The translations under genes were made by a program, and so were the position numbers. DNA of 29,569 bases from a virus. The stretch lies in IMG/VR virus record IMGVR_UViG_3300009370_000127, positions 1 to 29,569 of that record; one strand, given 5' to 3'. Below are positions 13,124 through 29,569 of the stretch, in pieces; within the stretch, counting starts at the first letter, position 1; each line of letters opens with the position of its first letter. A model generated the notes under the pieces. It had not been told where the DNA came from. It searched no databases and saw only the letters and a program-made list of their open reading frames with translations.

Positions 13124-13130
13124 TGGGAGA

Positions 13131-13159: not shown

Positions 13160-13169
13160 GCATTACTTT

Positions 13170-13207: not shown

Positions 13208-13210
13208 ATG

Positions 13211-13426
13211 TTAATAGTCGTTACCTTCCATTTGATTAAAGTCTGCTAGGTCATCCATGCCAGACCCGTCACCAGGCCAGCAACCTTCAAAGCCATCATA
13301 GGCTATTGTAGATGAGGAGAAATTAGGCTTCTCATCATAATACTCCTCTGAGCCAATTTTGGCAAGGCGGTCATCAGGGCTTTGGGGGTCGAGGTTAGAA
13401 TTAGGGTTGTTGTAGGTTTCACTCAT
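13211..13426 (-). CDS. MSETY-type small acidic protein, 71 aa
   Basis: Start chosen at 13426 from the promoter (-10 ends 7 nt upstream); the open frame upstream to 13555 crosses a promoter and hairpin. It begins MSETYNN, sharing its opening codons with genes at 15280, 16186 and 3488. The rest is acidic and probably disordered (NPNSNLDPQSPDD, GDGSGMDD). Single-gene cassette; function unknown. Confidence 0.62.
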   Translation of the reverse strand: MSETYNNPNSNLDPQSPDDRLAKIGSEEYYDEKPNFSSSTIAYDGFEGCWPGDGSGMDDLADFNQMEGNDY

Positions 13427-13433
13427 GGAGAAA

Positions 13434-13462
13434 ATAATAATATCTAAATACTGATTCGTCAA
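13434..13462 (-). promoter_or_regulatory. Cassette promoter (divergent pair)
   Basis: Minus strand: TTGACG (13462-13457), 17 bp, TATTAT (13439-13434), 7 nt, ATG at 13426. Faces away from the plus promoter at 13510. Confidence 0.8.
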
Positions 13463-13474
13463 GAAGTTTTTTTT

Positions 13475-13510
13475 GGGGTTACGAAACGCGCAGCGGCCTA
13501 AGAAACCCCT
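13475..13510. repeat. Cassette hairpin element R13 (between divergent promoters)
   Basis: GGGGTT, GCGCAGCGG core, AAACCCC; the last base is the first of the plus -35 box. No gene end lies here, so it is not needed as a terminator. Confidence 0.8.
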
Positions 13511-13538
13511 TGACAACGTCACAGAGTTCGTGTACCTT
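13510..13538 (+). promoter_or_regulatory. Leaderless-type promoter
   Basis: TTGACA (13510-13515), 17 bp, TACCTT (13533-13538), ATTCCC, ATG at 13545. Confidence 0.87.
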
Positions 13539-13544
13539 ATTCCC

Positions 13545-13928
13545 ATGAGTGACACTTATCAATTCGAGGATGTAGAAATTAAGCTGAACGATTCAACCCT
13601 CCTGTATGTCTTTGGAGAGCTTGAGTACGACCCTTGCTGGGAAAATGGTGATTTCGATTACGAGGGGCCACAAGGGACGGCCACTCATCGGGTCGGCATG
13701 GAATTGACCGATATTGAAATTGAGGATATAAGCATTTTTCATTTTAACGTCTCTGCTAACATGGGTGGCAAGTGGGTAGATTTGGGGCAGATTGAATGGA
13801 GTTACTGCGATCAGGATAAGAGCTTTCGGGCGTTTGTGGAAAAGGAAATTCGCGAAATCGTAGGCAATGACCGTTCATTTACTGAAACGGTACAAGAGGC
13901 GGGCGTGCCAGAATATGACCCTTGTTGA
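13545..13928 (+). CDS. Hypothetical acidic protein, 127 aa
   Basis: Leaderless start 6 nt after the -10; the frame is open from 13473 but that part is promoter. It begins MSDTY, like the MSETY group. Strand-rich and acidic, with a repeated EYDPC (near residue 35 and at the C-terminus) and a WSYCDQDKSFRAFVEKEI helix. The family is unrecognised. Single plus-strand gene inserted among minus-strand cassettes. Confidence 0.62.
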   Translation: MSDTYQFEDVEIKLNDSTLLYVFGELEYDPCWENGDFDYEGPQGTATHRVGMELTDIEIEDISIFHFNVSANMGGKWVDLGQIEWSYCDQDKSFRAFVEKEIREIVGNDRSFTETVQEAGVPEYDPC

Positions 13929-13950
13929 GTGTAAATATCATCTCACCCTT

Positions 13951-13997
13951 GCAACCCGAAGGGGTTGCGGGGGCCGCTGCGGGGTTAGCGACCCCTA
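13951..13997. repeat. Convergent cassette element R14
   Basis: GCAACCC-GAAG-GGGTTGC hairpin, GGCCGCTGCGG core, GGGGTTAGCGACCCC. Between convergent genes, same layout as R6. Confidence 0.8.
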
Positions 13998-14050
13998 AAC
14001 ATCCTATAAGCTATATAAACTAAAAGGATAGTTACTATAGGCTCCATGCT

Positions 14051-14233
14051 CTATTCGCAGGGATTAGGCTGAGTCCACACGTAAGGCCAAACCCCAACAA
14101 TCTCGCTATTAGGGTTATCTGCCAAGGCGCAGCGTTTGGCTTCTTCCAGAGAGAAGTCGCTAAAGCTTTGTTGATGATAATGACCGCTAACGGTGTGGCG
14201 GGTTCGGATCGTGTAGTTTTTGGTGTCGTCCAT
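14051..14233 (-). CDS. Hypothetical protein, 60 aa
   Basis: Start 8 nt after TAGTAT. Its layout (strand-rich start, a His-rich HYHQQSFSDFSLEEAKRCA stretch, then strands) is faintly like the DpnD/PcfM-type proteins at 7298-7708, but too divergent to assign. Single-gene cassette. Confidence 0.6.
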   Translation of the reverse strand: MDDTKNYTIRTRHTVSGHYHQQSFSDFSLEEAKRCALADNPNSEIVGVWPYVWTQPNPCE

Positions 14234-14241
14234 TTAGGGAA

Positions 14242-14270
14242 ATACTACACCCTAAATATCGGTTCGTCAA
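14242..14270 (-). promoter_or_regulatory. Cassette promoter (divergent pair)
   Basis: Minus strand: TTGACG (14270-14265), 17 bp, TAGTAT (14247-14242), 8 nt, ATG at 14233. Confidence 0.85.
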
Positions 14271-14278
14271 GCATTATT

Positions 14279-14315
14279 TAGGGGTTACTAAACACGCTGC
14301 GGCTAAAGAATCCCC
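14279..14315. repeat. Cassette hairpin element R15 (between divergent promoters)
   Basis: AGGGGTTACTAAACACGCTG, GCGG, AATCCCC, directly followed by the plus -35 box. Second divergent example. Confidence 0.8.
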
Positions 14316-14344
14316 TTGACAGTTAACTCTTTTTCTTGTACATT
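14316..14344 (+). promoter_or_regulatory. Near-leaderless promoter
   Basis: TTGACA (14316-14321), 17 bp, TACATT (14339-14344), 10 nt, ATG at 14355. Confidence 0.83.
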
Positions 14345-14354
14345 CTTTCTCGTA

Positions 14355-14663
14355 ATGAAGACCTACAAAACTTATCAAGCTCGTAACGCGGTCAAGGCCG
14401 CAGAGGTAACCAACCACATCAAAGCTCAAAAAAAATTGGGCGTGACTCATGAGAAGGCGAAGGCTGAAGCTTATCGCCTTTATCAAATCAAGGCTGCGAT
14501 GCCTATCCTCCGGCTCTCTTTTGAAGAGGCTCGTGTGGTAGCTGCTCCCCCTATCCCTCAAATGGTAAAAGTGAGCCTTCCACCTCTGCCCCAATCTAGA
14601 GCCTTGCCACCGCTGCCAGTGGGATTAGCCACAAACCCGCCTTCTCAATTACAAATACAGTAG
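14355..14663 (+). CDS. Hypothetical protein with Pro-rich tail, 102 aa
   Basis: Start from the promoter; the upstream open frame to 14316 is promoter DNA. It starts MKTYKTY (ATGAAGACCTAC, close to the shared 5' motif). Residues 8-60 are Ala/Lys/Glu-rich helix, likely coiled coil; residues 72-102 are Pro-rich (PPLPQ, PPLPVG) and probably extended. It might be a scaffold or binding protein; family unknown. Confidence 0.62.
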   Translation: MKTYKTYQARNAVKAAEVTNHIKAQKKLGVTHEKAKAEAYRLYQIKAAMPILRLSFEEARVVAAPPIPQMVKVSLPPLPQSRALPPLPVGLATNPPSQLQIQ

Positions 14664-14675
14664 GCACAGCGTCCT

Positions 14676-14723
14676 CGTAACCTGAAGGGGTTACGGGGGC
14701 CGCTGCGGGGTGGCGAACCCCTT
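14676..14723. repeat. Convergent cassette element R16
   Basis: CGTAACC...GGTTACG hairpin (14676-14695), GGCCGCTGCGGGG core, GCGAACCCC. Between convergent genes. Confidence 0.8.
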
Positions 14724-14988
14724 AAAAACCTAATCGTCGTTTAGCTCGCCACCACCACCCATATGCGGGGTCTTCGCCCCTGAGATTGGTGAGCCAGTAA
14801 AGGCGGTGGCACACGAGGTTAACCCAACGAGAGTTGGGCCACCTGTGGGCAGGGCCATGAGAACGGCTAAAGACCCAGCTACTGAAAGACCACTGCCACT
14901 CATGCGGCATGACTGCACGCACCACAGGGCGCAGGACTTGAGAGCGGCGGACAAAGAAACGAACAAGGTTGAACAGTAGGTCATTCAT
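14722..14988 (-). CDS. Hypothetical basic Trp-rich protein, 88 aa
   Basis: Start chosen at 14988 (7 nt after TACTAT); the frame is open to 15024 through the promoter. Unusually rich in Arg and Trp (ten Trp), ending YGWWWRAKRRLGF; this could suit membrane-surface or nucleic-acid binding. An alternative in-frame start in another frame (14984, 84 aa) also exists, so the true frame is not certain. Single-gene cassette. Confidence 0.5.
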   Translation of the reverse strand: MNDLLFNLVRFFVRRSQVLRPVVRAVMPHEWQWSFSSWVFSRSHGPAHRWPNSRWVNLVCHRLYWLTNLRGEDPAYGWWWRAKRRLGF

Positions 14989-14995
14989 TGGGGAA

Positions 14996-15024
14996 ATAGT
15001 ACGGCTGAAATATCGATTCGTCAA
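14996..15024 (-). promoter_or_regulatory. Cassette promoter
   Basis: Minus strand: TTGACG (15024-15019), 17 bp, TACTAT (15001-14996), 7 nt, ATG at 14988. Confidence 0.87.
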
Positions 15025-15033
15025 GAATTATTT

Positions 15034-15072
15034 TAGGGGTTACGAAACGCGCAGCGGCTTCAGTGATCCCTT
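15034..15072. repeat. Cassette hairpin element R17
   Basis: Consensus left half (AGGGGTTACGAAACGCGCAG), right half degenerate (GATCCCTTCGGGTC). Confidence 0.75.
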
Positions 15073-15091
15073 CGGGTCTGGAGCGTGTTAG

Positions 15092-15280
15092 CTATTCATC
15101 AAAAAGCTCATCGTAGTAATTACGGAATGGCACTACTTCGAGTTCGTCGGGGGTTTCTTCCACACCTTCGAGAGTCATCACTTGGACGGTCTCTTCAAAC
15201 AGGTTGAGGGTGCTGGCGTCAAACTCCAAGTCACACTTGGCGTCCAGGTTAGGATTATGGTGGTCGTAGGTTTCACTCAT
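15092..15280 (-). CDS. MSETY-family small acidic protein, 62 aa
   Basis: Leaderless start 6 nt after TAAGTT. It shares MSETY, LDAK, EFDAST and NLFE with the protein at 15977-16186, so the two are paralogues about 0.9 kb apart. Acidic and helical, ending NYYDELFDE. Unknown function. The repeated family in the same kind of cassette suggests duplication of whole cassettes followed by divergence. Confidence 0.68.
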   Translation of the reverse strand: MSETYDHHNPNLDAKCDLEFDASTLNLFEETVQVMTLEGVEETPDELEVVPFRNYYDELFDE

Positions 15281-15286
15281 GGGAGA

Positions 15287-15315
15287 AACTTACGGCATAA
15301 ATACCCATTCGTCAA
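15287..15315 (-). promoter_or_regulatory. Cassette promoter, leaderless type
   Basis: Minus strand: TTGACG (15315-15310), 17 bp, TAAGTT (15292-15287), TCTCCC, ATG at 15280. Confidence 0.85.
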
Positions 15316-15325
15316 GAATTATTTT

Positions 15326-15363
15326 AGGGGTTACGAAACGCGCTGCGGCTTCAGTGACCCCTT
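15326..15363. repeat. Cassette hairpin element R18
   Basis: AGGGGTTACGAAACGCGCTG, GCGG, GTGACCCC. The core has T in the centre while R17 has A. Confidence 0.8.
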
Positions 15364-15367
15364 ATGC

Positions 15368-15417
15368 TACTCCCCCGTATCCCCCCCGTATTTATTCGAC
15401 AGGGGGGGAGGGGGGTA
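15368..15417 (-). terminator. C-tract/G-tract hairpin, possible terminator
   Basis: Two C runs (around 15370-15388) face two G runs (15402-15415) with a short A/T-rich loop, so very GC-rich pairing is possible and the G runs might also form a quadruplex. On the minus strand it follows the small membrane genes at 15455-15640. No clear U-tract. Confidence 0.45.
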
Positions 15418-15454
15418 ACTTTTTTTTCATTTCAAAAAAATTACGCAGTACGGA

Positions 15455-15553
15455 CTACGTTAATGCTAAGGCGATTAAGGCAAAGCCTAGTGCGGTAAGA
15501 ATAAAGCCAGTTTGAAAGGCTGCGAGAAACATATCCCAATTAATTTTTTTCAT
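15455..15553 (-). CDS. Small membrane protein, 32 aa
   Basis: Begins MKKINWD and continues as one hydrophobic helix (residues 8-31) rich in Ala and Leu. It follows a 23-aa peptide by 15 nt and is probably the second gene of that cassette; the spacer carries AAAAAACCTACTAAATATG, another copy of the AAACCTAC motif. No ribosome site is seen. Confidence 0.55.
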   Translation of the reverse strand: MKKINWDMFLAAFQTGFILTALGFALIALALT

Positions 15554-15568
15554 ATTTAGTAGGTTTTT

Positions 15569-15640
15569 TTAGTTGTTAAAAGACTCACACACGAGGCGAG
15601 TCATAACGTACGCGAATAGGATTCCTGCTATCGGTTCCAT
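15569..15640 (-). CDS. Micropeptide with a membrane segment, 23 aa
   Basis: Start 7 nt after TATTAT. MEPIAGILFAYVM forms a short hydrophobic helix, followed by a polar end. The cassette promoter and position support expression, but at 23 aa this remains tentative. Pairs with the 32-aa membrane protein downstream. Confidence 0.5.
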   Translation of the reverse strand: MEPIAGILFAYVMTRLVCESFNN

Positions 15641-15647
15641 GTAGAGA

Positions 15648-15676
15648 ATAATACTTGTCAAATACCAATTTGTCAA
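15648..15676 (-). promoter_or_regulatory. Cassette promoter
   Basis: Minus strand: TTGACA (15676-15671), 17 bp, TATTAT (15653-15648), 7 nt, ATG at 15640. Confidence 0.87.
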
Positions 15677-15686
15677 GCATCATTTT

Positions 15687-15724
15687 AGGGGTTCGAAAAG
15701 CCGCTGCGCTTCGCGCTACCCCTT
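15687..15724. repeat. Cassette hairpin element R19
   Basis: AGGGGTTCGAAAAGCCGCTG, then GCGCTTCGCGC and TACCCC; the inner part can form a GCGC-TTC-GCGC hairpin. On the minus strand it follows RNA 2. Confidence 0.75.
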
Positions 15725-15726
15725 AA

Positions 15727-15884
15727 TGGTTCTCACGGAGTCGAACCGCCACCATTAGGGAAGGCGAAGCCAAAGCGATGTTGGGCCGCGTTCTTAAGGC
15801 ACTTTTTCGCATCTACACCCGACGACATACGAGGGGCGGTGCCGCGATAATTCTAGGCGGGAACCAGTCAGCCATCGCTTAACT
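15727..15884 (-). ncRNA. tRNA-like structured RNA 2 (~158 nt)
   Basis: A complete cassette promoter (15892-15920) drives a stretch with no gene on the minus strand. Predicted RNA features are a helix AAGCGATG (15880-15873) with CATCGCTT (15780-15773), inner stems GGCAC/GTGCC and CCGC/GCGG, a T-arm-like GCGG-TTCGACT-CCGT (loop 15745-15739) and TGGTTC (15866-15861) able to pair with GAACCA (15732-15727) near the 3' end. Together these imply a pseudoknot and a tRNA-like closed end. It is followed by element R19 at the position where cassette genes end. It resembles RNA 1 at 11244-11380 in ends and size; family unknown. Confidence 0.65.
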
Positions 15885-15891
15885 GGGGAAA

Positions 15892-15920
15892 ATAGTAGCT
15901 TGGAAATATCGATTCGTCAA
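15892..15920 (-). promoter_or_regulatory. Cassette promoter of RNA 2
   Basis: Minus strand: TTGACG (15920-15915), 17 bp, TACTAT (15897-15892), then TTTCCC; predicted +1 near 15884. No start codon follows. Confidence 0.85.
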
Positions 15921-15930
15921 GCATTATTTT

Positions 15931-15968
15931 AGGGGTTACGAAACGCGCAGCGGGGTGACGAACCCCTT
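15931..15968. repeat. Cassette hairpin element R20
   Basis: Same core sequence as R11 and R12. Confidence 0.85.
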
Positions 15969-15976
15969 ATGTGTTA

Positions 15977-16186
15977 TTACTCTTCACGGAGCCCATCCAT
16001 GAAGCGGTCTTCGTTTTCGTTTTCCTCGTAACAGAGTTCATCGATGACGGTGAAATGTTCGTCAGCGAGCACATCCACTTGCGCTTCAAACAAGTTTATG
16101 GTGCTGGCGTCGAATTCGGCGTCAAGCTTCGCGTCAAGGCTCGCGCTAAGTGGGGTTTCTGAATTAGGTTCGTAGGTTTCACTCAT
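15977..16186 (-). CDS. MSETY-family small acidic protein, 69 aa
   Basis: Leaderless start 6 nt after TAGGAT. Shares MSETY, LDAK, EFDAST and NLFE with the protein at 15092-15280. The extra segment ASLDAKLDAEFDAS looks like an internal duplication. Ends ENEDRFMDGLREE. Acidic, soluble, unknown role. Confidence 0.68.
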   Translation of the reverse strand: MSETYEPNSETPLSASLDAKLDAEFDASTINLFEAQVDVLADEHFTVIDELCYEENENEDRFMDGLREE

Positions 16187-16192
16187 GGGAGA

Positions 16193-16221
16193 ATCCTAGA
16201 GCCAAAATATCAGTCTGTCAA
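16193..16221 (-). promoter_or_regulatory. Cassette promoter, leaderless type
   Basis: Minus strand: TTGACA (16221-16216), 17 bp, TAGGAT (16198-16193), TCTCCC, ATG at 16186. Confidence 0.87.
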
Positions 16222-16231
16222 CACTTTTTTT

Positions 16232-16270
16232 AGGGGTTTGGAAGACCGCAGCGGTTTCCGTAACCCCTTT
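16232..16270. repeat. Cassette hairpin element R21
   Basis: AGGGGTTTGGAAGACCGCAG, CGG, then GTAACCCC and TTTT. Confidence 0.78.
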
Positions 16271-16289
16271 TGGGTCGGAAGCGATGCTT

Positions 16290-16511
16290 TTAGGCGTACG
16301 CTGTGCGTACTATATTGAATTCCTTCATTTGCTTCTTCTTCGCCACGCGGAGTTTACTCGCGGGAACGGTAAAAGTCGAACCGTCGTAAGATTCGAGCGT
16401 CCACACATCATTTTCTACGCTTTTCGCACGTCCGATTTGATAACCGCAGAGCGAATCAGGGTCTTTGACCTTATACAGGCATCCGATTTGGTAACGAGTA
16501 GGTTTTTTCAT
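16290..16511 (-). CDS. Hypothetical protein, 73 aa
   Basis: Start chosen at 16511, downstream of the promoter; the frame is open to 16553. Begins ATGAAAAAACCTAC, the shared 5' motif. Strand-rich fold (YQIGCLYKVKD..., DVWTLESYDGSTFTVPASKLRV) that looks like a small beta-barrel or SH3-like domain, with a basic KKKQMK stretch. No family can be named. Confidence 0.6.
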   Translation of the reverse strand: MKKPTRYQIGCLYKVKDPDSLCGYQIGRAKSVENDVWTLESYDGSTFTVPASKLRVAKKKQMKEFNIVRTAYA

Positions 16512-16521
16512 CTCCCGAATA

Positions 16522-16550
16522 GGATAACCGACCAAATACCGACCTGTCAA
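16522..16550 (-). promoter_or_regulatory. Cassette promoter (weak -10)
   Basis: Minus strand: TTGACA (16550-16545), 17 bp, TTATCC (16527-16522), or TATCCT with 18 bp. The ATG at 16511 lies about 10 nt downstream. Confidence 0.65.
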
Positions 16551-16560
16551 CACTTTTTTT

Positions 16561-16599
16561 AGGGGTTAGGAACGCCGCTGCGGCTTTCAGAAGCCTTTT
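16561..16599. repeat. Cassette hairpin element R22 with GGCTT/AAGCC-TTTT
   Basis: AGGGGTTAGG, GCCGCTGCGG core, then GGCTT-TCAG-AAGCC-TTTT (16582-16599), a possible plus-strand terminator. It lies between divergent promoters. Confidence 0.78.
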
Positions 16600-16625
16600 C
16601 GTGTAAAAAAGGTCTATTTTTTCGC

Positions 16626-16654
16626 TTGACCGATCCGTTTAGTCGGTTTACACT
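16626..16654 (+). promoter_or_regulatory. Promoter with inverted repeat
   Basis: TTGACC (16626-16631), 17 bp, TACACT (16649-16654). ACCGA (16629-16633) and TCGGT (16643-16647) form an inverted repeat across the spacer, a possible operator. Confidence 0.75.
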
Positions 16655-16684
16655 CTACGAAGTGGCGAACTTAAAGAAAAACAC

Positions 16685-16765
16685 ATGAAAAAAGACATTA
16701 CATTATGGAATATCGTCTGCGGCACCTTCTGGCTCTTCATTTTAGCTTCCGTGCTCCCGAACTAG
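16685..16765 (+). CDS. Membrane micropeptide, 26 aa
   Basis: After a leader of about 25 nt it starts MKKDITLW and continues as a hydrophobic helix to residue 24. AAAGAAAA upstream is only a weak ribosome site. Plus-strand single-gene unit, divergent from the cassette at 16290. Function unknown. Confidence 0.5.
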   Translation: MKKDITLWNIVCGTFWLFILASVLPN

Positions 16766-16887
16766 GCGATTTTTTTGCGATTTTAATAGGCCCGCCCTAT
16801 TTTTCGAATAACGGATCAAATTGAATTCGTGAGGCGAGGGGGGGGAGGTATTTTTCAGTCTCCCCGAGACCAAACCTTTCAGTCGCA
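16766..16887. other. Short noncoding region between convergent genes
   Basis: A G8 run lies near 16838-16845 with GAGG on both sides. No gene is seen. Confidence 0.4.
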
Positions 16888-17094
16888 TTAAAGACGAATT
16901 TTTGTCGGTTCCATTTTTAGAATTCGTTCGTGTCGAAAAGAGCGTATGCCTTTGCCGTAACAATAAGCAACGATGCCCACGTTTAGACCTTTGTCGTCTT
17001 TTAACAAGTCAAAAGGGCGACTGATTTTGTAGTCTTTTTCTTCACCTTTAGATGTAACATACCTTAGTGAGTAATGTGGTAGTTGTTCGTTCAT
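16888..17094 (-). CDS. Small WYL-like domain protein, 68 aa
   Basis: The sequence follows the core of a WYL ligand-sensing domain: SLRYVTSKGEEKDYKISRP, then GIVAYCYGKGIRSFRHERILKME, which resembles the family's ...LVAYC..R...R.FRLDRI.. pattern. WYL domains often bind oligonucleotides or nucleotides and control transcription or defence genes. Here the domain stands alone, without a DNA-binding part, and the key Tyr-Cys/FR positions are partly kept. It follows the 17103 gene by 8 nt and shares its promoter. The assignment is by pattern only. Confidence 0.55.
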   Translation of the reverse strand: MNEQLPHYSLRYVTSKGEEKDYKISRPFDLLKDDKGLNVGIVAYCYGKGIRSFRHERILKMEPTKIRL

Positions 17095-18563: not shown

Positions 18564-18657
18564 AATTAAAATATAACTGAGCAACCCAAAGGCCACATCG
18601 AGGGCATTGAAAGTATTTTTTAGCTATGCAATAACCACAGTTGGGGCAATTCTTCAT
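18469..18657 (-). CDS. Putative zinc-ribbon protein, 62 aa
   Basis: Begins MKNCPNCGYCIAKKYFQCPRCG, a good C-x2-C...C-x2-C zinc ribbon, overlapping the upstream gene by ATGA. The remainder is hydrophobic and overlaps the 3' end of the plus-strand gene at 18222-18563, which is unusual. The Cys motif and coupling support a real gene; the real end or length may differ. Confidence 0.5.
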   Translation of the reverse strand: MKNCPNCGYCIAKKYFQCPRCGLWVAQLYFNFILIGRFVLKSPRVSGYLFPTLFSPCKERRL

Positions 18658-19115
18658 TTAGGTCCGAACTTTTCAAGTATAAGGTTTTTATAGTGGGCAA
18701 ATTCGTAGAAACTCGCCTTACCATTCCTAAGCCAACTGATGTATTTTAATTTTTCGTGAAAAAATGGCCTAACCTCCTCAATTAAGTCGGCAGTCATAAC
18801 CGTTGAAACAAAGTCTATTGTGTAACAATTAGCATCTTCATCTGGCGGGGTGAATAAATTTTCCATATATGAATTTAGAGCTTCTTCCTTGGAGTCGTAC
18901 TTTTTTTTGTTTATGAGCAAGGCTATGTTTTCGGAGCAATAAGCAAACCCTTGATACCTCAAAAACAAATCGAGAAAGTAATTTTTGTTTGTAGTTTTTT
19001 GAGTAAGTATGAACTCACTTTCGGGCTGATTCTTAATTAATAGGTCTTGGCATCGTTGAAAGAAAACGAGCTTTTCGTCATTATTAAATAAGTTTAGTCG
19101 TTTGAACTGATTCAT
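18654..19115 (-). CDS. Hypothetical protein, 153 aa
   Basis: Starts inside the end of the GT9-type gene (32-nt overlap) and ends in an ATGA shared with the zinc-ribbon frame. Charged, mostly helical, with many Asn, Lys and Phe, and a SFYEFAHYKNLI segment near the C-terminus. No family recognised. Member of the minus-strand glycosylation-type operon. Confidence 0.65.
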   Translation of the reverse strand: MNQFKRLNLFNNDEKLVFFQRCQDLLIKNQPESEFILTQKTTNKNYFLDLFLRYQGFAYCSENIALLINKKKYDSKEEALNSYMENLFTPPDEDANCYTIDFVSTVMTADLIEEVRPFFHEKLKYISWLRNGKASFYEFAHYKNLILEKFGPK

Positions 19116-19866
19116 AAGAGTCTATGGCCTCCTCTAGCTTGTGTGTTTGGTTGAAGGTTAGCTGGGTTACTTTATCGAAAGATAATATGTTTTTTCTGCT
19201 ATTATTGGTGTAAAACCCTATCGTTTGCTTGTTGAGACCTCTAGCTATGAGCGTACCACAACTTTCTGTACCTATAAACAAATTACAGTTATCAATAATG
19301 CTTATAAATTCGTGGTAATTTAATTTTTCTTCTCCTATTATATGGTAATTTTCGTATTTTGATAGAGTTTGAAGGACTTCTTTGTTTTCATGCAGACAAC
19401 GATCCTCTTCGTTAGCTCTTAGTTGGGCTACGATATTATAAGAAGGCACGTTTTGCTTTGAGAAGTGAATTTGGGGGATAATGGAATTTAGAGTAATATT
19501 TTTACCTAGTAGCATATGTTTAGCTACAGCGTGAGACATAGGTATTTCATATCTTGGGTCTTGGCTTTTCACTCCCTTTTCCAAAACTCCTTGAAAATCA
19601 AAATGTAAATCAAAAAATGAATTAATGCCCCGCCAATATGGAGACTCTTTTGGTTTTAGCTCATCGTAATACCCCAGATAATAATCCATAGTGTCACAGA
19701 CAACGTCAGAAATTAACGGGTGATGAGTAAGTACATCATAAAAATCTATATACGTTCTAAAGACAATTTCGCACGGCTTGTGTTCTTCGTGAATAGCTCT
19801 TATTATTGGCTCTATGAAAAGGAGGTCTCCAAGACCGCCTAGCCTTGTTAATAGAATTCTTGTCAT
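19084..19866 (-). CDS. Glycosyltransferase family 9-like protein, 260 aa
   Basis: Start chosen at 19866 (MTRILLTRLGGLGD), 2 nt after the previous stop; the frame extends upstream without need. The N-terminal GGLGDLLFIEPIIRAI matches ADP-heptose:LPS heptosyltransferase-type (GT9) enzymes, and the C-terminal part has the NLFIGTESCGT motif typical of their nucleotide-sugar site. It probably transfers a sugar to a phage or host glycan; the donor and acceptor cannot be told. The operon has two GT9-like genes (the other at 22373). Soluble, no membrane segment. Confidence 0.8.
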   Translation of the reverse strand: MTRILLTRLGGLGDLLFIEPIIRAIHEEHKPCEIVFRTYIDFYDVLTHHPLISDVVCDTMDYYLGYYDELKPKESPYWRGINSFFDLHFDFQGVLEKGVKSQDPRYEIPMSHAVAKHMLLGKNITLNSIIPQIHFSKQNVPSYNIVAQLRANEEDRCLHENKEVLQTLSKYENYHIIGEEKLNYHEFISIIDNCNLFIGTESCGTLIARGLNKQTIGFYTNNSRKNILSFDKVTQLTFNQTHKLEEAIDSYESVQTTKLI

Positions 19867-19868
19867 GT

Positions 19869-20498
19869 TTATTCTATTCGTTTTTGCCAACTGGGAAGAT
19901 TTACAGAGCGGCCCCAAGCTACCCCCTGAGGTATGAGGGGCTCTAAAATTAAAAAGCCTTCACTACGATTATCCTTTGTAATAAGGTGGGTCTTTTTGAA
20001 TGGGTTACACATGAAACCTATTCCGCGTTCGTTATCGGAAGCTCTGTAATCTGGGGGGCAATCCCCACTGGTGTAGGGGCCGTCTTCATAAATTCTTACA
20101 TCATCTATAATGAAAACATCCCTTGAAACATCTTTATTTTTAACAATAAGCTCAAGTTCTCTTTTTAGAGGTAATTCAGTTTCGTCATCTCGCGGATGTC
20201 CGTAATGACTAGGTAGATGAGCGTCTAGCCAAAAAAGAGTGGGTACATCATAATTTTCTTTTAGAATGTTTGGGAGAACGTTTACGGAGCTACCCAAGAA
20301 AGCGCGTATATTTGGAATATTAGAGAAGTCATTAGAATCAAACATATGCTCTAGCAACTCTATAGTATAAACCCTCTTAAAGTTTTGAGAGGCTAGGTGG
20401 GTGGTGCCGTCGCCTAAGTGAGTTCCTGTTTCAATAGCTATTTCTAAATTGTATTCTTTTTTTAGTTCTCCGATAGGCCATTCATATATAGCACCCAT
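19869..20498 (-). CDS. Methyltransferase-like protein, 209 aa
   Basis: A Rossmann-type methyltransferase pattern: IETGTHLGDGTTHLA near residues 21-35 as a glycine-rich S-adenosylmethionine site, VYTIELLEHMF, and FWLDAHLPSHY with acidic residues in the 90s. It may methylate a sugar or an intermediate made by the neighbouring enzymes. It is soluble, lies 2 nt upstream of the GT9 gene and 10 nt downstream of the radical SAM gene. The exact methyltransferase family is not certain. Confidence 0.68.
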   Translation of the reverse strand: MGAIYEWPIGELKKEYNLEIAIETGTHLGDGTTHLASQNFKRVYTIELLEHMFDSNDFSNIPNIRAFLGSSVNVLPNILKENYDVPTLFWLDAHLPSHYGHPRDDETELPLKRELELIVKNKDVSRDVFIIDDVRIYEDGPYTSGDCPPDYRASDNERGIGFMCNPFKKTHLITKDNRSEGFLILEPLIPQGVAWGRSVNLPSWQKRIE

Positions 20499-20508
20499 AG
20501 CAATACCT

Positions 20509-21270
20509 TTATCTAGGGCAAACAGAACAATAAGAGTGTTTTAGTCTACCTCCAGCCACAGAAAGGTCATCTACGAGCTCTTGGTGTTTCTGGCTTTCCC
20601 ATATTTCTTTTAGCGACATAGTATTCGTATCCCCAAGACCAAAGTGGCCGACGTAATCATCGCAACAATGGAGAACTGTCCCATTGTAAGCTATAATTAA
20701 CATTTGATTATAGAACGTGCACGGTTTGTGTTTTTGGTCTTCAACTGTTTGCGTGGTATTAGTAAAGGGGCTATAGTGAGTAATCACATGGACGCCTTTC
20801 GTGAATCTTAATTCTGTTTTTTTGAAAAGATTTAGGAGCCATTTTTCTCTCTCTGGTTGTCTTTCTTCAGGTATATACAAGGCGACTACGAAATGATCAA
20901 AAAGGCCGTCCAGTTCTTTTGCTCTTTCTTCAGTCATTAAATCCATGTTAGAACAAGCAGATAAAGCTCCTTTAATTTGGGGTTTACTTTTAACATATTG
21001 ACCTAACTCAGCCAGCCTTTCATCTAAGAGTGGCTCATTAAAGTGTTGCAAACAAACGGTATTGTCAAAACCCATGTCCACAGCTTGATCTATTATTCTT
21101 TTAAATGTGGCCGTGGGCATTTTCATTCCTTCTCCCACTTTAGAAGTCACAGGGAACCTCCCGTAATGAGTTGGGTTATTTTTGTTGATGTACGTTTGCC
21201 TTAAGCAAGTCTGGCACGTCCTATTACAACTTCCAACCGTTTCGATTTCTAGGTGGGTAAAAATGTTCAT
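20509..21270 (-). CDS. Radical SAM protein with SPASM-like C-terminus, 253 aa
   Basis: C15-x3-C19-x2-C22 (CNRTCQTC) is the classical radical SAM [4Fe-4S] motif. The C-terminal half has a SPASM-like Cys set: KPC near 180, HCC after an AYNGTV stretch, then a SLKEIW segment and a final YCSVCPR. Such enzymes modify peptides, sugars or proteins, or act in cofactor and natural product synthesis. In this sugar-transfer operon, modification of a sugar or glycosylated product is a fair inference. It overlaps the upstream GT2 gene by ATGA. Confidence 0.85.
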   Translation of the reverse strand: MNIFTHLEIETVGSCNRTCQTCLRQTYINKNNPTHYGRFPVTSKVGEGMKMPTATFKRIIDQAVDMGFDNTVCLQHFNEPLLDERLAELGQYVKSKPQIKGALSACSNMDLMTEERAKELDGLFDHFVVALYIPEERQPEREKWLLNLFKKTELRFTKGVHVITHYSPFTNTTQTVEDQKHKPCTFYNQMLIIAYNGTVLHCCDDYVGHFGLGDTNTMSLKEIWESQKHQELVDDLSVAGGRLKHSYCSVCPR

Positions 21271-22376
21271 AGTTTATTTTTAGCAAAATTTAAGTTTTTT
21301 TCTATTCTTGGCAAATACGAACGAGGAACGAAAGCGTTTTGCAATAACTCTTGGCAAGCGTCATAGGACTCTTGATAGTGTCCAGCCCAATAAGCGGCAA
21401 TCGAAAATTCGTCAAGCAGTCCATAATCGTAAATCCATTTCTCTGTAAATAGAAAATGTTTTTTTATTTTTTTATTGAGCCCCTCTTTTGACATGAGATA
21501 AGCCAAATGATTTTTATTGTGCGTCCTGCAATATTTAGCGAGATAATGATAAGCTTCGGCTCTTGAGCTATTAAATTCGAGCCCCTTAAGATAGGTCTCT
21601 ACAACTACATTGCTCGGATAACCTAATTGTTCTTGTAGCATTCCACCTTTTATACAGGATTGATAAGACTCTTCTTCCCAATGTCCCATTTTTATACGTT
21701 GCATATAGAAATCGAGAGCTTTTCCCGGAGAATCGCTATCTTTATGACTTTGAGCAGCGTAAAACGTGTATCTTGAACGAAGAAATTCATCTGTTTCGGT
21801 CTCTAAGGCTTCCTCCAGTAATTTTGCGTCATCTTGAAATTTACGAGGATTTTTGTTTCTAGCACTATCTTGGATTGGGTGATTATAGAAGTTTTTTTCA
21901 TGATTTATGAAATCTTTTGTCCCTTCTCCGTCTAGAAACTCATGAACCACGCCTATATATTTGAAGTCTTTTTTGTTAGATGTGAGAGTGGGCCGATAAT
22001 AAATAGTATCAGCCATTTTAGTGGGAATATTGTAAATATCAAAACTTAAGGATTCTTTAAATTTTTTAATATCAAAACTCTTCTGAAATGTTAGTATCTC
22101 ATCAGCATCAATCATCAGTGCGTATTCACAATCTGTTTTTCTTGCTTCTTTTAACGCAAGCGTTCTACCGTGTGCAAAACCTTTCCATTGGTCTTCTATT
22201 ATCTTCCCCGGCAAGTTTTGTTTTTTTAGAAAATTATTTATTACTTTTATTGTGTTGTCTGTACTCCCCGTATCTACAATAACGACTTCATCTATCAAGG
22301 GTTTTACGCTATCAAGGCAACGCTCGATTATGTGAGCCTCGTCTTTCACTATCATACATAAGTTTATTTTTTTCAT
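21267..22376 (-). CDS. GT2 glycosyltransferase with TPR-like C-terminus, 369 aa
   Basis: Start chosen at 22376 (MKKINLCMIVKDE), which overlaps the upstream stop by ATGA; the open frame to 22430 would run into the upstream gene. Residues 1-120 hold a GT-A fold: CMIVKDEAHIIERCLDSV, VIVDTGSTDNT, and a MIDADE DxD-type metal site. The C-terminal half has repeated helical segments with aromatic and Asn-rich positions like TPR repeats (AKYCRTHNKNH, AAYWAGHYQESYDA). This fusion is a recognised type of processive or protein-linked sugar transferase. Substrate unknown. Confidence 0.85.
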   Translation of the reverse strand: MKKINLCMIVKDEAHIIERCLDSVKPLIDEVVIVDTGSTDNTIKVINNFLKKQNLPGKIIEDQWKGFAHGRTLALKEARKTDCEYALMIDADEILTFQKSFDIKKFKESLSFDIYNIPTKMADTIYYRPTLTSNKKDFKYIGVVHEFLDGEGTKDFINHEKNFYNHPIQDSARNKNPRKFQDDAKLLEEALETETDEFLRSRYTFYAAQSHKDSDSPGKALDFYMQRIKMGHWEEESYQSCIKGGMLQEQLGYPSNVVVETYLKGLEFNSSRAEAYHYLAKYCRTHNKNHLAYLMSKEGLNKKIKKHFLFTEKWIYDYGLLDEFSIAAYWAGHYQESYDACQELLQNAFVPRSYLPRIEKNLNFAKNKL

Positions 22377-23260
22377 ATTTTCTGCATTACAGCATCGTAA
22401 ACCATATCGACGGATATTCCCGCCATACATTCATGTTTTGGATTTTCATATGTTTGATTTTTTGGGTTAGGGCACGTACCCTTGGACATTTGAGATACTT
22501 TCGGGTCTTCCCTGAAACACGGCTGGCATGGCAAATTTAGGGAAATATTTGTGTTATGACGATATCCTGCCGCATTATACTGAGTTGACCCCCATAAAAT
22601 AACACAACTCTTTTTGCCTATACCATGCCATGAATAATTAGATGTATGATTAAAGACGGAATCTACACCAATATGAAGTTCCCCCCAAATTTGGGAAGCT
22701 AAATTATCATCGAACGAACGTCCCAAAAAATGCCCATCGAGATTTAACAATTTTGGATCGTTAGGCCCGCCTATTTGATATATTCCTATATCTGGCCTTT
22801 CGTCTTTGAGTCTATTTACGAGTTTTTGCCAACCCCACCACTCTTTGTAAGCGGACCATCCTGTTTTTGTCTGAATCGTAATGTATATGGGCTTTTTAAA
22901 AACTTCAGATGGAGGTTTCATGGGCGTTAACTTCACGTCATCGAATGAAATATCCAAATCTAGCTCTTCAGCAAAATATTCTATTAAGTGTTTTCTCATT
23001 GGCGTATTGGGGTACCCCTCGGACAAGGGATAACCAATACAATTCACAGATTTGTCATATTTAGAAGAATCAAATTCATCTATATCTGAAGCTTCATCAA
23101 CTAGCCCACTTTTTCTACAAAAATTTTTTACAACACCTAATGTGGACCGATGGCAATACAAATCGACTTTATCGTAACGCTCCTTTAGCTTGGGGGCGCA
23201 ATTGAGGATCATCATTATGTCTCCTATGGCTCCCGGACGACAAAGGGCTATCGACTTCAT
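22373..23260 (-). CDS. Glycosyltransferase family 9-like protein, 295 aa
   Basis: The GAIGDIMM motif at residues 11-18 and a later LGRSFDDNLASQIWGELHIGVDSVFNH segment match GT9 (heptosyltransferase-type) enzymes. A Cys-rich stretch near residues 245-280 (CQPCFREDP...CPNPK...C) is typical of one sub-branch. It is the second gene of the operon, overlapping the neighbour on each side by ATGA. Its paralogue is at 19084-19866. Confidence 0.82.
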   Translation of the reverse strand: MKSIALCRPGAIGDIMMILNCAPKLKERYDKVDLYCHRSTLGVVKNFCRKSGLVDEASDIDEFDSSKYDKSVNCIGYPLSEGYPNTPMRKHLIEYFAEELDLDISFDDVKLTPMKPPSEVFKKPIYITIQTKTGWSAYKEWWGWQKLVNRLKDERPDIGIYQIGGPNDPKLLNLDGHFLGRSFDDNLASQIWGELHIGVDSVFNHTSNYSWHGIGKKSCVILWGSTQYNAAGYRHNTNISLNLPCQPCFREDPKVSQMSKGTCPNPKNQTYENPKHECMAGISVDMVYDAVMQKI

Positions 23261-23460
23261 TTCTTTCTTCGGGTCGCTTTTTTCTTCTTTTTCTTGAGAA
23301 CGTACCTATTAACGTATTTGATTGTTTCCCAAGCTAAATTGTTGATTTTTCTCGCTTTATTTTGTACTTTTTCATTATCTTCAAATTTGCAGTATTTATA
23401 GCTCTCGTCTAGAATTTTGTCAAAATCTTTTACAGCCATTTTGGCTTGTTTTTTGTCCAT
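23257..23460 (-). CDS. Small basic protein, 67 aa, first gene of glycosylation operon
   Basis: Helical, ending in a strong Lys/Arg run (KKKKKKATRRKK), which suits nucleic-acid or membrane-surface binding. Overlaps the GT9 gene by ATGA. It may be the first gene of the minus-strand operon; its promoter is not clear but the 23461-23514 AT-rich gap is the likely place. Function unknown. Confidence 0.6.
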   Translation of the reverse strand: MDKKQAKMAVKDFDKILDESYKYCKFEDNEKVQNKARKINNLAWETIKYVNRYVLKKKKKKATRRKK

Positions 23461-26647: not shown

Positions 26648-28480
26648 ATGTTTTTTTGTCCTGAAAAATACAAAAGCGGAGCAGAAGACCTTAACAAGGA
26701 CTTCCTTAGGCTTCAGGGCGAACTAGGAGATGAGGAAGCTCAAATTTCTCTCGCTAAATTCCTTCGCCACAACCTTCACTTCACTACAGAGTTGCTTACG
26801 GGAATAAAGCTCGCTCCATTCCAAGAGGTGACTCTCCGTGCGATGCTGAATAGAAACTTTAGTATGTGTGTGTGGGGTCGTGGTTGCGGCAAGACTTTTA
26901 TAGCCTCTGTCTTTTGTCTTTTACAAACTATTTTTGAGCCTAAAACTAAAATTTTAGTTGCTGGCCCCACTTTTCGTACCGCTCGCTTCGTCTTCAACAA
27001 TATAGAAAGCATTCATAACGGTAAAGGGGCAGAGCTTTTGCAACAGGTGTTTGGAGCAAAATCAAAACGTAACGATCAATACGAATGGTTAATTAACGGA
27101 GGGTCTATCACAGCTATCCCCTTGTCTGGTGAAAAAATTCGTGGTTTTCGCGCTAACGTTTTAGTTTTAGATGAGTACCTGCTTCTTCCTGAGGAAATTA
27201 TTAAAACTGTTTTGATGCCGTTTTTGGTAGCACCGCAAGACATAAAGGAACGTTTAGAAGTTAGAGAAATAGAAGATAAACTAATTAAAGAAGGGAGAAT
27301 GAAAGAGGAGGAAAGGATGGTATTTAAAGATAACTCTAAAATGGTCGCCCTTTCTTCAGCTAGTTATACTTTTGAAAACCTATATAAGACTTACCAAGAA
27401 TGGACAAGTAAGATTTACAAAGAAGACGATAACGCAGACTCTACTTATTTTATATCCCAAATGGGATATGAGTCTCTCCCAAACCATATGATTGACGAAA
27501 CTATTATCGAGGAAGCTAAGGATGGAGGGCAAAGTCATTCGAGTTTTCAGCGAGAATATTGCGCTCAATTCACTGATGGTTCCGATTCTTATTTTAGCGC
27601 GAAAAAAATGCACGAGTGCACAATTCCAGACGGAGAATCTCCCACAACGCAAATCAAGGGAAAATCAAATAAAAAGTATATATTAGCAATTGACCCTAGT
27701 TTTTCTGATTCCCCTAGCTCTGATTACTTCGCCATGTCGGTAATGGAGCTAGATGAAGAAAAAAGACAATGTGTATTAGTGCATGGGTACGCTGTGGCTG
27801 GAGGACACCTAAAAGATCATATTAAATATTTTTATTATTTAAATAAATTTTTTAATTTAGAGATGATCATGATAGATAATGCTGGCTATCAATTTATTGA
27901 CAGTGCAAATGAAAGTAAATACTTTAAAGAAGATAAAATAAAATTAAGTTTTTTTGATTTTAATTCAGATGCTGAAGACTTAGATTACAGACAAATGCTA
28001 AAGAAGGCGAGGTACCATTACAATAAAGAGTCAGGAAAAAAATGCATAAAACAAGTATTTACGAGCGGTTTTATAAGAAAAGCTAACGAACACCTAAAGG
28101 CTTCTATCGATTATAAGAAAGTATGGTTCGCTTCGAGGGTTACCGCAAACAACTCAGCTTTTGACGAGTCTATTTCGGTTACTGTAGACAAGGAGCTACT
28201 ACACTCTGAAACCGTTTTAGATTTAATGGAAATGCAAGACGACTTAATCTATCAAACTAAAAAACAGTGCGCTTTAGTAGAGGTTAAGTCTACCGCTAGA
28301 GGAACACAAACCTTTGATTTACCCCTACATTTGAAGAAAAGCTCATCCGCAACTAGGGCAAGAAAAGATAATTACACCACTTTGATGCTGGGGGTTTGGG
28401 CTACTAAGTCTTACTTCGACATGATGAATACTGAAGATATTTCGAAAAGTAGCACTTTTTCTCCTATCATGATTGACTAA
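26648..28480 (+). CDS. Terminase large subunit, 610 aa
   Basis: The DNA-packaging motor and nuclease. Walker A is WGRGCGKT (residues 76-83), Walker B VLVLDE (171-176), and the RNase H-like nuclease starts at YILAIDPSFSD (Asp 349) with a further Asp in MIMIDNAG near 410. Length and layout fit the phage large terminase family. It starts 1 nt after the nuclease gene. It cuts concatemeric DNA and drives it into the prohead. Confidence 0.95.
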   Translation: MFFCPEKYKSGAEDLNKDFLRLQGELGDEEAQISLAKFLRHNLHFTTELLTGIKLAPFQEVTLRAMLNRNFSMCVWGRGCGKTFIASVFCLLQTIFEPKTKILVAGPTFRTARFVFNNIESIHNGKGAELLQQVFGAKSKRNDQYEWLINGGSITAIPLSGEKIRGFRANVLVLDEYLLLPEEIIKTVLMPFLVAPQDIKERLEVREIEDKLIKEGRMKEEERMVFKDNSKMVALSSASYTFENLYKTYQEWTSKIYKEDDNADSTYFISQMGYESLPNHMIDETIIEEAKDGGQSHSSFQREYCAQFTDGSDSYFSAKKMHECTIPDGESPTTQIKGKSNKKYILAIDPSFSDSPSSDYFAMSVMELDEEKRQCVLVHGYAVAGGHLKDHIKYFYYLNKFFNLEMIMIDNAGYQFIDSANESKYFKEDKIKLSFFDFNSDAEDLDYRQMLKKARYHYNKESGKKCIKQVFTSGFIRKANEHLKASIDYKKVWFASRVTANNSAFDESISVTVDKELLHSETVLDLMEMQDDLIYQTKKQCALVEVKSTARGTQTFDLPLHLKKSSSATRARKDNYTTLMLGVWATKSYFDMMNTEDISKSSTFSPIMID

Positions 28481-28526: not shown

Positions 28527-29569
28527 ATGGCTGACAATTACATTAGGCTTAAGCAAATTTATCAACCAGATATTTCTGGTTACGTGTTGGATGTCGTATC
28601 GGGCGCACCAACCGTTTATTTCGGTGGAGATGTTGTCGCTTCGGGACATCTTTTACCCAAGGAAGACGAAACATACGATTTAGGCTCATCTGCTTACAGC
28701 TTCAGAAAACTCTATATAGCTTCTGGCGATGTCGATGGGGGTATCTATTTTCACGATGGTGCTAACTCCTACAAGCACGTAGAAATCAGTGGAAACTCCC
28801 TTCTTATTGACGGCGAACCTCTTACAATTGACGTTACGTCTCCTCCCGGACCAGTAGGTTTGACTGGTCCCACTGGTCCAGCGGGAGCATCAGGAATGAC
28901 TGGGGAGACAGGGCCAGTTGGCCCAATAGGATATACTGGCCCTACTGGCGTTTCTGTTTCTGGTCACCTTCTTTCTGGCGACAACAACGAGTATTTGGCG
29001 TGGATATATGGAACGGGTACGGGAGCCACAACTGGCGTTCCTCTTTTGCTCCCTAGTGGTGCTACGGGAGAAACGGGACCAGAAGGCAAAATTGGCGGTT
29101 TAATTTACAATTTTCAACAAATAACCGGACTTTACAGCGGAGAAACATTCCCTTATCTCACCGTCGAGGACTTGGGTGGAATAAACCCAACCCTAACAAT
29201 AATCAGGGGGCACTCTTACACGTTTGACTATGACGAGTTAAATGTTACTACAGTACTTAACTCTCCAACTAATTTTTATCAAGACGCTGCTCATTTAAGG
29301 TTTGCTATATTTTCCAGTCAAACTCAAGAAGGTAGATACATTCCTTCAGAAGGCGTTTGTAGTGTTCCAGCGCATGATAACGAAGCGGCCTGTTTAGCTG
29401 CACAAGCGACTTGGACTCCGAATTCCCCAATGCCTTCAGTTTCTGGTTCGAAAGCTTCACTGGGTGATCTGTTTCAAGATTTTGAATACGGTACTAATCT
29501 TGGGCTTGTTACTGGTCCCGTTTCTTTTTCTGCTGGCTCTGATTTCAAATACGGTTTCACAAAAATGCA
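28527..29569 (+). CDS. Collagen-like tail fibre protein (partial)
   Basis: Open from ATG at 28527 (AAAGG 2-6 nt upstream) to the window end, at least 347 residues, with no stop seen. The start is strand-rich and holds DLGSSAYSFRKLYIAS near residues 51-66, a motif of phage fibre beta-structures. Gly-x-y collagen-like repeats lie at about 107-141 and 177-192. Later a C...C...W segment (near residues 280-295) resembles repeats in marine phage virion proteins. It is probably a tail or tail-fibre component that contacts the host surface. The C-terminus lies outside the window. Confidence 0.82.
   Translation, partial: MADNYIRLKQIYQPDISGYVLDVVSGAPTVYFGGDVVASGHLLPKEDETYDLGSSAYSFRKLYIASGDVDGGIYFHDGANSYKHVEISGNSLLIDGEPLTIDVTSPPGPVGLTGPTGPAGASGMTGETGPVGPIGYTGPTGVSVSGHLLSGDNNEYLAWIYGTGTGATTGVPLLLPSGATGETGPEGKIGGLIYNFQQITGLYSGETFPYLTVEDLGGINPTLTIIRGHSYTFDYDELNVTTVLNSPTNFYQDAAHLRFAIFSSQTQEGRYIPSEGVCSVPAHDNEAACLAAQATWTPNSPMPSVSGSKASLGDLFQDFEYGTNLGLVTGPVSFSAGSDFKYGFTKM

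Follow-up and report, generated by a model that had tools for sequence, protein, structure and literature searches.

Gene content and organisation of the operon

The window, by which we mean the whole stretch of 29,569 nucleotides analysed here (IMG/VR record IMGVR_UViG_3300009370_000127), derives from a marine tailed phage that has not been cultivated and represents a fragment of its genome. Positions 18654-23460 hold seven co-directional genes on the minus strand, most of them overlapping and transcribed in the order o67, GT9a, GT2, rSAM, MT, GT9b and ORF153. These genes, the motifs within them and two further genes of the window are as follows.

18654..19115, minus strand: ORF153, last gene of the core operon, conserved in position in relatives
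19084..19866, minus strand: GT9b, second family-9-type (heptosyltransferase-like) glycosyltransferase (TIGR02201, E 5e-9)
19116..21266, no strand assigned: insert of 2,151 bp with rSAM, MT and GT9b, between GT2 and ORF153
19869..20498, minus strand: MT, putative class I SAM methyltransferase (ETGTHLGDGT motif and homologues)
20509..21270, minus strand: rSAM, BtrN-like radical SAM enzyme with a Twitch domain, 253 aa (PF13186, E 1e-10)
20518..20721, minus strand: Twitch auxiliary-cluster region of rSAM, C184-x12-G-x4-C202 ... C248-x2-C251, cysteines invariant in nine members
21205..21228, minus strand: CxxxCxxC cluster motif of rSAM (C15, C19, C22), invariant in nine family members
21267..22376, minus strand: GT2, family-2 glycosyltransferase with a helical C-terminal half, 369 aa, core gene (PF00535, E 2.3e-13)
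22373..23260, minus strand: GT9a, family-9-type, heptosyltransferase-like glycosyltransferase of GT-B fold, core gene (alignment and AF2 model)
22427..22528, minus strand: four-cysteine finger of GT9a, C245-x2-C248-x14-C263-x14-C278, resembling the TibC iron finger
23257..23460, minus strand: o67, opening gene of the operon, encoding a small Lys-rich protein and conserved along with the core
26648..28480, plus strand: terminase large subunit, TerL (phrog_2, E 3e-23)
28527..29567, plus strand: candidate target, a collagen-like tail fibre containing Gly-X-Thr triplets and running off the contig (phrog_5073, E 1e-10)

The original gene calls were essentially right, since all of the named minus-strand open reading frames are present and free of internal stops. 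The longest open frame in the operon region spans 387 aa; in 200 Markov shuffles preserving dinucleotide composition, the longest frame averaged 88 aa and never exceeded 156 aa. Internal ATG codons are probably the true starts of GT2, giving the 369-aa protein listed above, and of GT9b, giving 260 aa. The genes had been described as overlapping by ATGA or lying a few nucleotides apart, and this holds: each of the first three junctions (o67-GT9a, GT9a-GT2 and GT2-rSAM) is a 4-nt ATGA overlap, and the rSAM-MT and MT-GT9b gaps measure 10 and 2 nt. GT9b and ORF153 overlap by 32 nt.

The terminase was used to place the phage and to find its relatives, yielding 537 relative-encoding stretches in IMG/VR. 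Related phages, too, carry the core of the operon, o67-GT9a-GT2-ORF153, in this PhoH/sigma-factor hotspot. At the same position, o67 is 48-56% identical in L002, L006 and L007, and ORF153 is 30-49% identical in L006, L007, L084-L087 and L101; family profile scans gave no convincing match for o67. Where the insert is lacking, the gap between GT2 and ORF153 measures just 6, 6, 3, 3 and 2 nt (in L006, L007, L084, L086 and L101, respectively). The three inner genes, rSAM-MT-GT9b, are an insertion into a conserved core, gained in the lineage of the window. Insertion of the whole operon was considered and rejected, because the core is kept at this site in relatives. Searches with A9 and A7 in two record sets found no phage besides the window with both GT9a and an rSAM of this type.

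Glycosyltransferases and putative methyltransferase

GT9a was examined using an alignment of 15 members and an AF2 model (pLDDT 74). The top 20 Foldseek matches of the model are all TibC chains (4rap/4rb4, E about 1e-8), and VIA matched it to WaaF (1psw, Z 17.7) and TibC (Z 16.8). With TibC, a BAHT heptosyltransferase, GT9a shares the GT9 GT-B catalytic domain, the catalytic Asp and the donor-site Thr, Lys and Trp positions, and it has a putative equivalent of the TibC four-cysteine iron finger. D110, T226, K230 and W305 of TibC correspond to D14, T128, K132 and W211 of GT9a at a near-constant offset, whereas for R286 of TibC no equivalent residue was identified in GT9a. In contrast to TibC, GT9a lacks the N-terminal beta-barrel (TibC residues 1-97; GT9a residue 1 aligns with TibC residue 96), which is required for TibC activity, and gene scans of the window detected no autotransporter gene beside it. 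Nor did a PDB profile search return a sequence match, giving chance matches only or none. The four finger cysteines are invariant across the 15 sequences, down to 51-52% identity, and their spacing, C-x2-C-x14-C-x14-C in a protein whose residues 241-262 are poorly modelled (pLDDT < 50), compares with C-x2-C-x15-C-x11-C in TibC, where the ligands are Cys339, 342, 358 and 370 (PMC4358343). No relatives of GT9a were confirmed in 84,980 cellular genomes, in a scan limited by the peptide pattern used, and the GT9a-GT2 pair was found in at least eight unrelated large-phage lineages.

GT2 matches GmaR (E 2.7e-13) and SunS (E 2e-7) in the PDB, as well as phrog_13126. Of the earlier GT2-TPR assignment, the GT2 domain stands, but Pfam finds no TPR in the protein of the window; TPR repeats are seen only in homologues, strongly in L016 (TPR_2, E 2e-9) and weakly in L088. 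Other homologues are fused to GT9b, FkbM, TylF or other methyltransferase domains (L088, L091, L102, L108 and L111). The GT domain of GmaR modifies flagellin (PMC9638930), SunS is a peptide S-glycosyltransferase, and the GT-A+TPR enzyme SgtA, encoded beside bclA3, glycosylates Thr of the GPT collagen repeats of BclA3 (PMC7157674). The GT2 of the window shares with this group its GT2 domain and a helical C-terminal half, and differs in being phage-encoded and partnered or fused with GT9, methyltransferase or rSAM. On sequence and model evidence, GT2 and GT9a both look like protein glycosyltransferases.

In L108, a fusion protein of 1029 aa (GT9b-MT-MT-GT2) has an N-terminal domain with 40% identity to GT9b, and in L091 the identity is 31%; alphaRep matches to residues 2-29 were judged to be chance. 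The methyltransferase-like character proposed for MT is suggested by an ETGTHLGDGT motif, recognised by eye, and by homologues, but not by any Pfam match. One homologue, in Synechococcus phage S-T4 (E 3e-14), sits beside GT9-like genes in a cyanophage sugar cluster, and there is a weak match (E 0.2) to a homologue in S-SCSM1 annotated as a methyltransferase.

A Twitch radical SAM enzyme linked to GT2

rSAM had been described as a radical SAM/SPASM enzyme. The SPASM motif has seven cysteines (CX9-15GX4C-gap-CX2CX5CX3C-gap-C), whereas Twitch comprises CX9-15GX4C ... CX2C (PMC6231123). rSAM carries just the first four of the seven and ends at R253, two residues past C251; the radical SAM assignment is upheld, but the C-terminus is a Twitch domain with one auxiliary cluster rather than a full SPASM domain.

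The family profile (A9) matches BtrN over its full length (E 2e-17), and the AF2 model (pLDDT 81) retrieves BtrN with Foldseek (E 3e-13). In VIA the model superimposes on 200 residues of BtrN at 2.3 A with a Z of 22.3, the next family reaching Z 16.4. Judged by sequence profile and model, BtrN thus appears to be the closest relative by a clear margin, at an identity of about 20-22%, and the cluster and Twitch cysteines of rSAM align with those of BtrN. Arg152 of BtrN, which we take to be an active-site residue, aligns with a non-Arg position within an invariant T-H-x-S-P strand of rSAM. BtrN is the 2-deoxy-scyllo-inosamine dehydrogenase of the butirosin pathway and carries out a two-electron oxidation of an aminocyclitol (PMC9012708). 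Its partners are antibiotic genes, whereas that of rSAM is a protein-type GT2. Function cannot be read off sequence clustering in the subfamily of rSAM (PMC6231123), and homology to BtrN does not fix its reaction.

Relatives of rSAM were found with a degenerate CNRTCxTCLR scan, exact-peptide patterns being too strict and finding none in viral and genome collections. A tblastn search of cultured phages returned nothing at 1e-5; at a relaxed E value the best match was a bacterial-looking faecal contig, followed by weak 'BtrN' genes of Campylobacter phages within a run of radical-SAM genes. Among 25 related phage records there was no further rSAM of the window's kind, only a different, N-Twitch-like protein in L081. 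In two phages (L119/L123 and L116/L128), homologues 35-46% identical to rSAM form a single polypeptide with a GT2 of this kind, the L119 fusion being 652 aa long. In L122 the homologue directly follows such a GT2 gene and in L124 it follows a remnant of the GT2 C-terminus, in both cases among or upstream of head genes; outside the window, the pair adjoins head genes or collagen-like genes. More general sugar clusters house the BtrN-like relatives of L125-L127, with no GT2 of this kind beside them. From the fusions and adjacency we infer that rSAM and GT2 act together.

Candidate acceptor and proposed function

The glycan-making function originally proposed for the operon is strongly supported. 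Its product had tentatively been placed on virion proteins, DNA or host LPS; the protein-type glycosyltransferases and the adjacency to fibre and head genes favour a virion protein, no support was found for DNA, and LPS is the main rival. A candidate acceptor is the collagen-like fibre gene that follows the terminase 5 kb from the operon, which encodes 16 triplets, eight of them with Thr at Y. In three unrelated large phages (L088, L089 and L091), GT9a-GT2 directly adjoins threonine-rich, Gly-X-Thr collagen-like fibre genes, an arrangement like that of sgtA and bclA3. Within the terminase clade a collagen-like fibre follows TerL in 5/5 phages bearing the cassette and 4/32 without it, a comparison confounded by ancestry; some relatives lacking the cassette have Gly-X-Thr fibres too. 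No collagen-like gene was seen in flanks of up to 6 kb in L102 and L106-L111.

On balance we favour, as probable if far from certain, O-glycosylation of a virion protein, plausibly the collagen-like fibre, with radical-SAM tailoring of the glycan. GT9a, whose active site and cysteine finger resemble those of TibC, and the GmaR/SunS-like GT2 would put sugars, drawn from ADP-heptose or a similar donor, on the virion protein, most plausibly the threonine-rich tail fibre, which the helical C-terminal half of GT2 may grip. In the order of transfer that we envisage, GT9b, acquired with the three-gene cassette in this lineage, would then extend the glycan, and MT and the BtrN-like rSAM would tailor one of its sugars. 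rSAM would most likely take a hydrogen off a sugar carbon and oxidise the radical via the auxiliary cluster, giving a keto sugar. The benefit to the phage may be shielding or altered adsorption.

A competing explanation, and the main one, is that the target is the surface of the infected cell, where the operon would decorate LPS or another glycan with a tailored sugar and so block superinfection. The classical GT9 enzymes are LPS heptosyltransferases, WaaF fits GT9a as well as TibC does, and the relative L007 carries a nucleotide-sugar cluster with a GDP-mannose dehydratase and an RfaE-like gene. Glycosyltransferase clusters of pelagimyophages have likewise been interpreted as modifying the host surface (PMC7029224). 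Family profile scans, however, found no GtrA-type flippase or O-antigen polymerase in the operon, and the match of GT2 to protein-modifying enzymes, the rSAM-GT2 pairs among head genes and the fibre genes adjoining GT9a-GT2 all speak against it, so we regard this explanation as rather unlikely, though deserving of serious attention. Less likely still, rSAM might act on a polypeptide as RiPP maturases do, by epimerisation, cross-linking or side-chain oxidation of fibre or capsid, alongside glycosylation. Its fold class includes SuiB, ChlB, anSME and EpeE (Z 13-16), and fusion with a protein-type GT2 would bring it to a protein substrate; yet no RRE domain is apparent in its 253 aa, which comprise the radical-SAM core and Twitch, its clear best match acts on a sugar-like cyclitol, and the L125-L127 relatives lie in sugar gene clusters. 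Hypermodification of DNA, with the transferases and rSAM making a glycosylated base, is very improbable: some phages are known to modify DNA with glycosyltransferases, and certain phage modification loci include radical-SAM genes, but the transferases here resemble protein glycosyltransferases, and no thymidylate-synthase or hydroxymethylase member was found in the window or in eight related records, a weak absence as these are mostly fragments.

Returning to glycosylation of the virion, a more specific version, which we put forward tentatively and with no great expectation, is that rSAM, working with a protein glycosyltransferase in one complex or one polypeptide, oxidises a sugar already attached to the collagen-like fibre, yielding a keto-glycan that is possibly reactive or cross-linking. 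Phage-encoded transferases also decorate virion proteins of mycobacteriophages (Freeman 2023, cited in PMC12619734), which are other phages with other genes, and the accessible part of that source mentions no radical SAM tailoring enzyme. The set of genes had been thought unusual for a phage. Many phages of this clade, and marine phages generally, have hotspots for glycosyltransferases. In the host-recognition clusters of pelagimyophages, glycan genes and radical-SAM cassettes are gained and lost, and the available part of that study makes no mention of a BtrN-like rSAM-GT2 fusion (PMC7029224); the hotspot of the window differs in lying between PhoH and the sigma factor/terminase. What remains distinctive is the association of a BtrN-like rSAM with a protein-type GT2, for which we found no description in the literature that was searched.

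By uniting a Twitch radical SAM enzyme and a protein-type glycosyltransferase in one polypeptide, the fusion connects radical SAM chemistry with protein glycans. To our knowledge, few phages have been found to glycosylate their virions, and we know of no case in which such sugars are remodelled by radical chemistry. The L119 fusion, with two domains and a small size, lends itself to testing, and its neighbours allow a guess at the substrate. As a module that recurs in unrelated phages and whose tailoring domains (methyltransferases, GT9b) are interchangeable, GT9a-GT2 provides a new marker of phage glycoprotein systems; in the window, a radical SAM enzyme joins this tailoring set.

Core and insert of the operon

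The seven genes on the minus strand (18654-23460) are genuine, tightly packed and of lengths far beyond chance; two start codons of the original prediction are to be corrected. In order of transcription they are o67 (a small Lys-rich protein), GT9a (family-9-type glycosyltransferase), GT2 (family 2), rSAM (radical SAM enzyme), MT (putative methyltransferase), GT9b (family-9-type) and ORF153. Using tblastn with the window proteins, we located o67, GT9a, GT2 and ORF153 in the PhoH-to-sigma interval of L006, L007, L084-L087 and L101, except that o67 was not seen in L085, a contig that begins just before GT9a, or in L101; in L002, o67 and the edge of GT9a are present. GT2 and ORF153 lie 2-6 nt apart in L006, L007, L084, L086 and L101, and 2,151 bp apart in the window, where rSAM, MT and GT9b stand between them. 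Since even L101, a more distant relative (terminase 59% identical), is without these three genes, the simplest reading is that they were gained in the window's lineage. This interval is a hotspot. GT9-like, GT2-TPR, TylF methyltransferase or sulfotransferase genes occupy it in other relatives, and in many it is little filled or empty.

The 29,569-base window, an IMG/VR virus record, has a gene order that is plausible for a phage (endolysin, clamp loader, PhoH-like, sigma-like factor, ERCC4-type nuclease, terminase large subunit and collagen-like tail fibre), together with a region of ~6 kb (10900-17000) of short ORFs only, on both strands, none >151 aa. Nucleotide comparison revealed no close cultured phage, and the terminase gave only distant matches to cultured phages. 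Because 537 stretches in IMG/VR encode relatives of this terminase, the longest contigs reaching ~158 kb, the phage belongs to a large uncultivated lineage; the company it keeps suggests a marine origin.

The GT9a-GT2 pair in other phages

GT9a relatives are encoded on 18 viral contigs, some near-duplicates, and the GT9a-GT2 pair occurs in ~8 lineages beyond the terminase clade, some >200 kb, where GT2 is often fused:

GT2 fusions outside the terminase clade
L088: methyltransferase-like N-terminus (by eye)
L102: FkbM and TylF
L111: two methyltransferase domains
L091: GT9b
L108, 7522-10611: GT9b (40% identical to window GT9b) and two methyltransferase domains (Methyltransf_23, FkbM), in a 1029-aa protein

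The window's mixture of GT9a, GT2, GT9b and MT is therefore one arrangement of a recurring toolkit. Near the module in L102 (1180-2136) and L111 (378-1328) are Planctomycete-style prepilin-like sequences (28 residues, not shown), which may point to the host or to the presence of bacterial DNA within those contigs.

The GT9a fold is that of GT9, with WaaF (Z 17.7) and TibC (Z 16.8) tied, and TibC provides all of the top 20 Foldseek matches. Four GT9a cysteines, invariant in 15 homologues, have nearly the spacing of the TibC iron finger, and TibC Asp110, Thr226, Lys230 and Trp305 correspond to D14, T128, K132 and W211, each invariant or almost so; the correspondence is by offset, from published residue numbers and the span of the alignment (1-295 to 96-387), rather than by residue-level alignment. 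GT9a is TibC-like but, because the TibC barrel is absent, is not filed as a BAHT. Among solved structures, GT2 matches SunS and GmaR; the GT domain of GmaR glycosylates flagellin, and recognition of flagellin has been proposed for its TPR (PMC9638930).

Target and donor sugar

In L088, L089 and L091 the GT9a-GT2 module adjoins genes that contain 77-84 Gly-X-Y triplets, with Thr mainly in the Y position, and the window fibre, starting 5 kb from the operon, has the same repeat style. Within the terminase clade, a collagen-like fibre is present in 5/5 cassette-bearing phages with readable downstream sequence, versus 4/32 without the cassette (Fisher p 3e-4, inflated by kinship). A bacterial precedent close in kind is SgtA, an enzyme that combines GT-A with TPR and whose gene neighbours bclA3; it glycosylates Thr in the GPT collagen repeats of BclA3 (PMC7157674). 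Counting against a fibre target, L102 and L106-L111 have no collagen gene within the flank examined. The reading with the best support, somewhat favoured overall, is protein glycosylation with tailoring by the radical SAM enzyme; modification of the host surface ranks second and is rather unlikely.

ADP-heptose is a plausible candidate donor, because L007 has a gene resembling RfaE domain II (its score is under the curated cut-off) that clusters with GT and methyltransferase genes and one for a GDP-mannose dehydratase, and L108 has an HldE-type kinase-cytidylyltransferase fusion near the module. A second glycan cluster in L007, a close relative, is found at L132 619-8275 (L132 belongs to the L007 contig), far from the PhoH hotspot, and comprises GT, FkbM-like MT, GT9-like, RfaE-like and GDP-mannose dehydratase genes.

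The radical SAM enzyme and its probable GT2 partner

The enzyme had been labelled SPASM; its C-x12-G-x4-C ... CxxC motif, followed by the protein end, is instead Twitch and not seven-cysteine SPASM, as defined in PMC6231123. Cysteines C15, C19, C22, C184, C202, C203, C248 and C251 are kept in nine aligned members. BtrN, which performs a two-electron oxidation of a cyclitol alcohol (PMC9012708), matches the family profile at E 2e-17 and the model (pLDDT 81) at Z 22.3, the next family reaching 16.4. By analogy, the most likely reaction would be an equivalent sugar oxidation. The chemistry may differ, however, since at the place of the active-site Arg152 of BtrN the family has a residue other than Arg, next to an invariant T-H-x-S-P. 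Elsewhere, Campylobacter phage WX1 (L093 1-5462) has several radical SAM genes, one annotated BtrN, in a run with amidinotransferase and aminotransferase genes, and L081 1456-2814 (contig shared with L064) encodes a phage radical SAM protein distinct from this one, which has a SPASM/Twitch-like segment at its N-terminus and, as flanking genes, methyltransferase-like and sulfotransferase-like ones.

Degenerate motif and profile scans recovered rSAM relatives 34-46% identical, and in L119/L123 and L116/L128 GT2 and rSAM form one polypeptide, an arrangement of which we found no description, for BtrN-like enzymes, in the literature searched:

GT2-rSAM single polypeptides
L119, 3374-5332 (652 aa; preceded by short GPT-repeat proteins)
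L128, 598-2724

In L122 the matched rSAM segment starts 6 nt after the GT2 gene ends, and the L124 contig opens inside what appears to be the C-terminal part of such a GT2, with rSAM coming directly after it. These fusions and adjacencies in other contigs independently support a joint action of rSAM and this kind of GT2. In L118, L122 and L124 the sequence goes on to genes for a portal, head protease or major head protein (L124 by likeness to L118), and in L125-L127 rSAM is located in sugar clusters. In L118 (2708-5584) the head maturation protease and major head protein are fused in one 958-aa frame. Phage glycosylation is already known as a kind; the rSAM-GT2 fusion is the most surprising element here.
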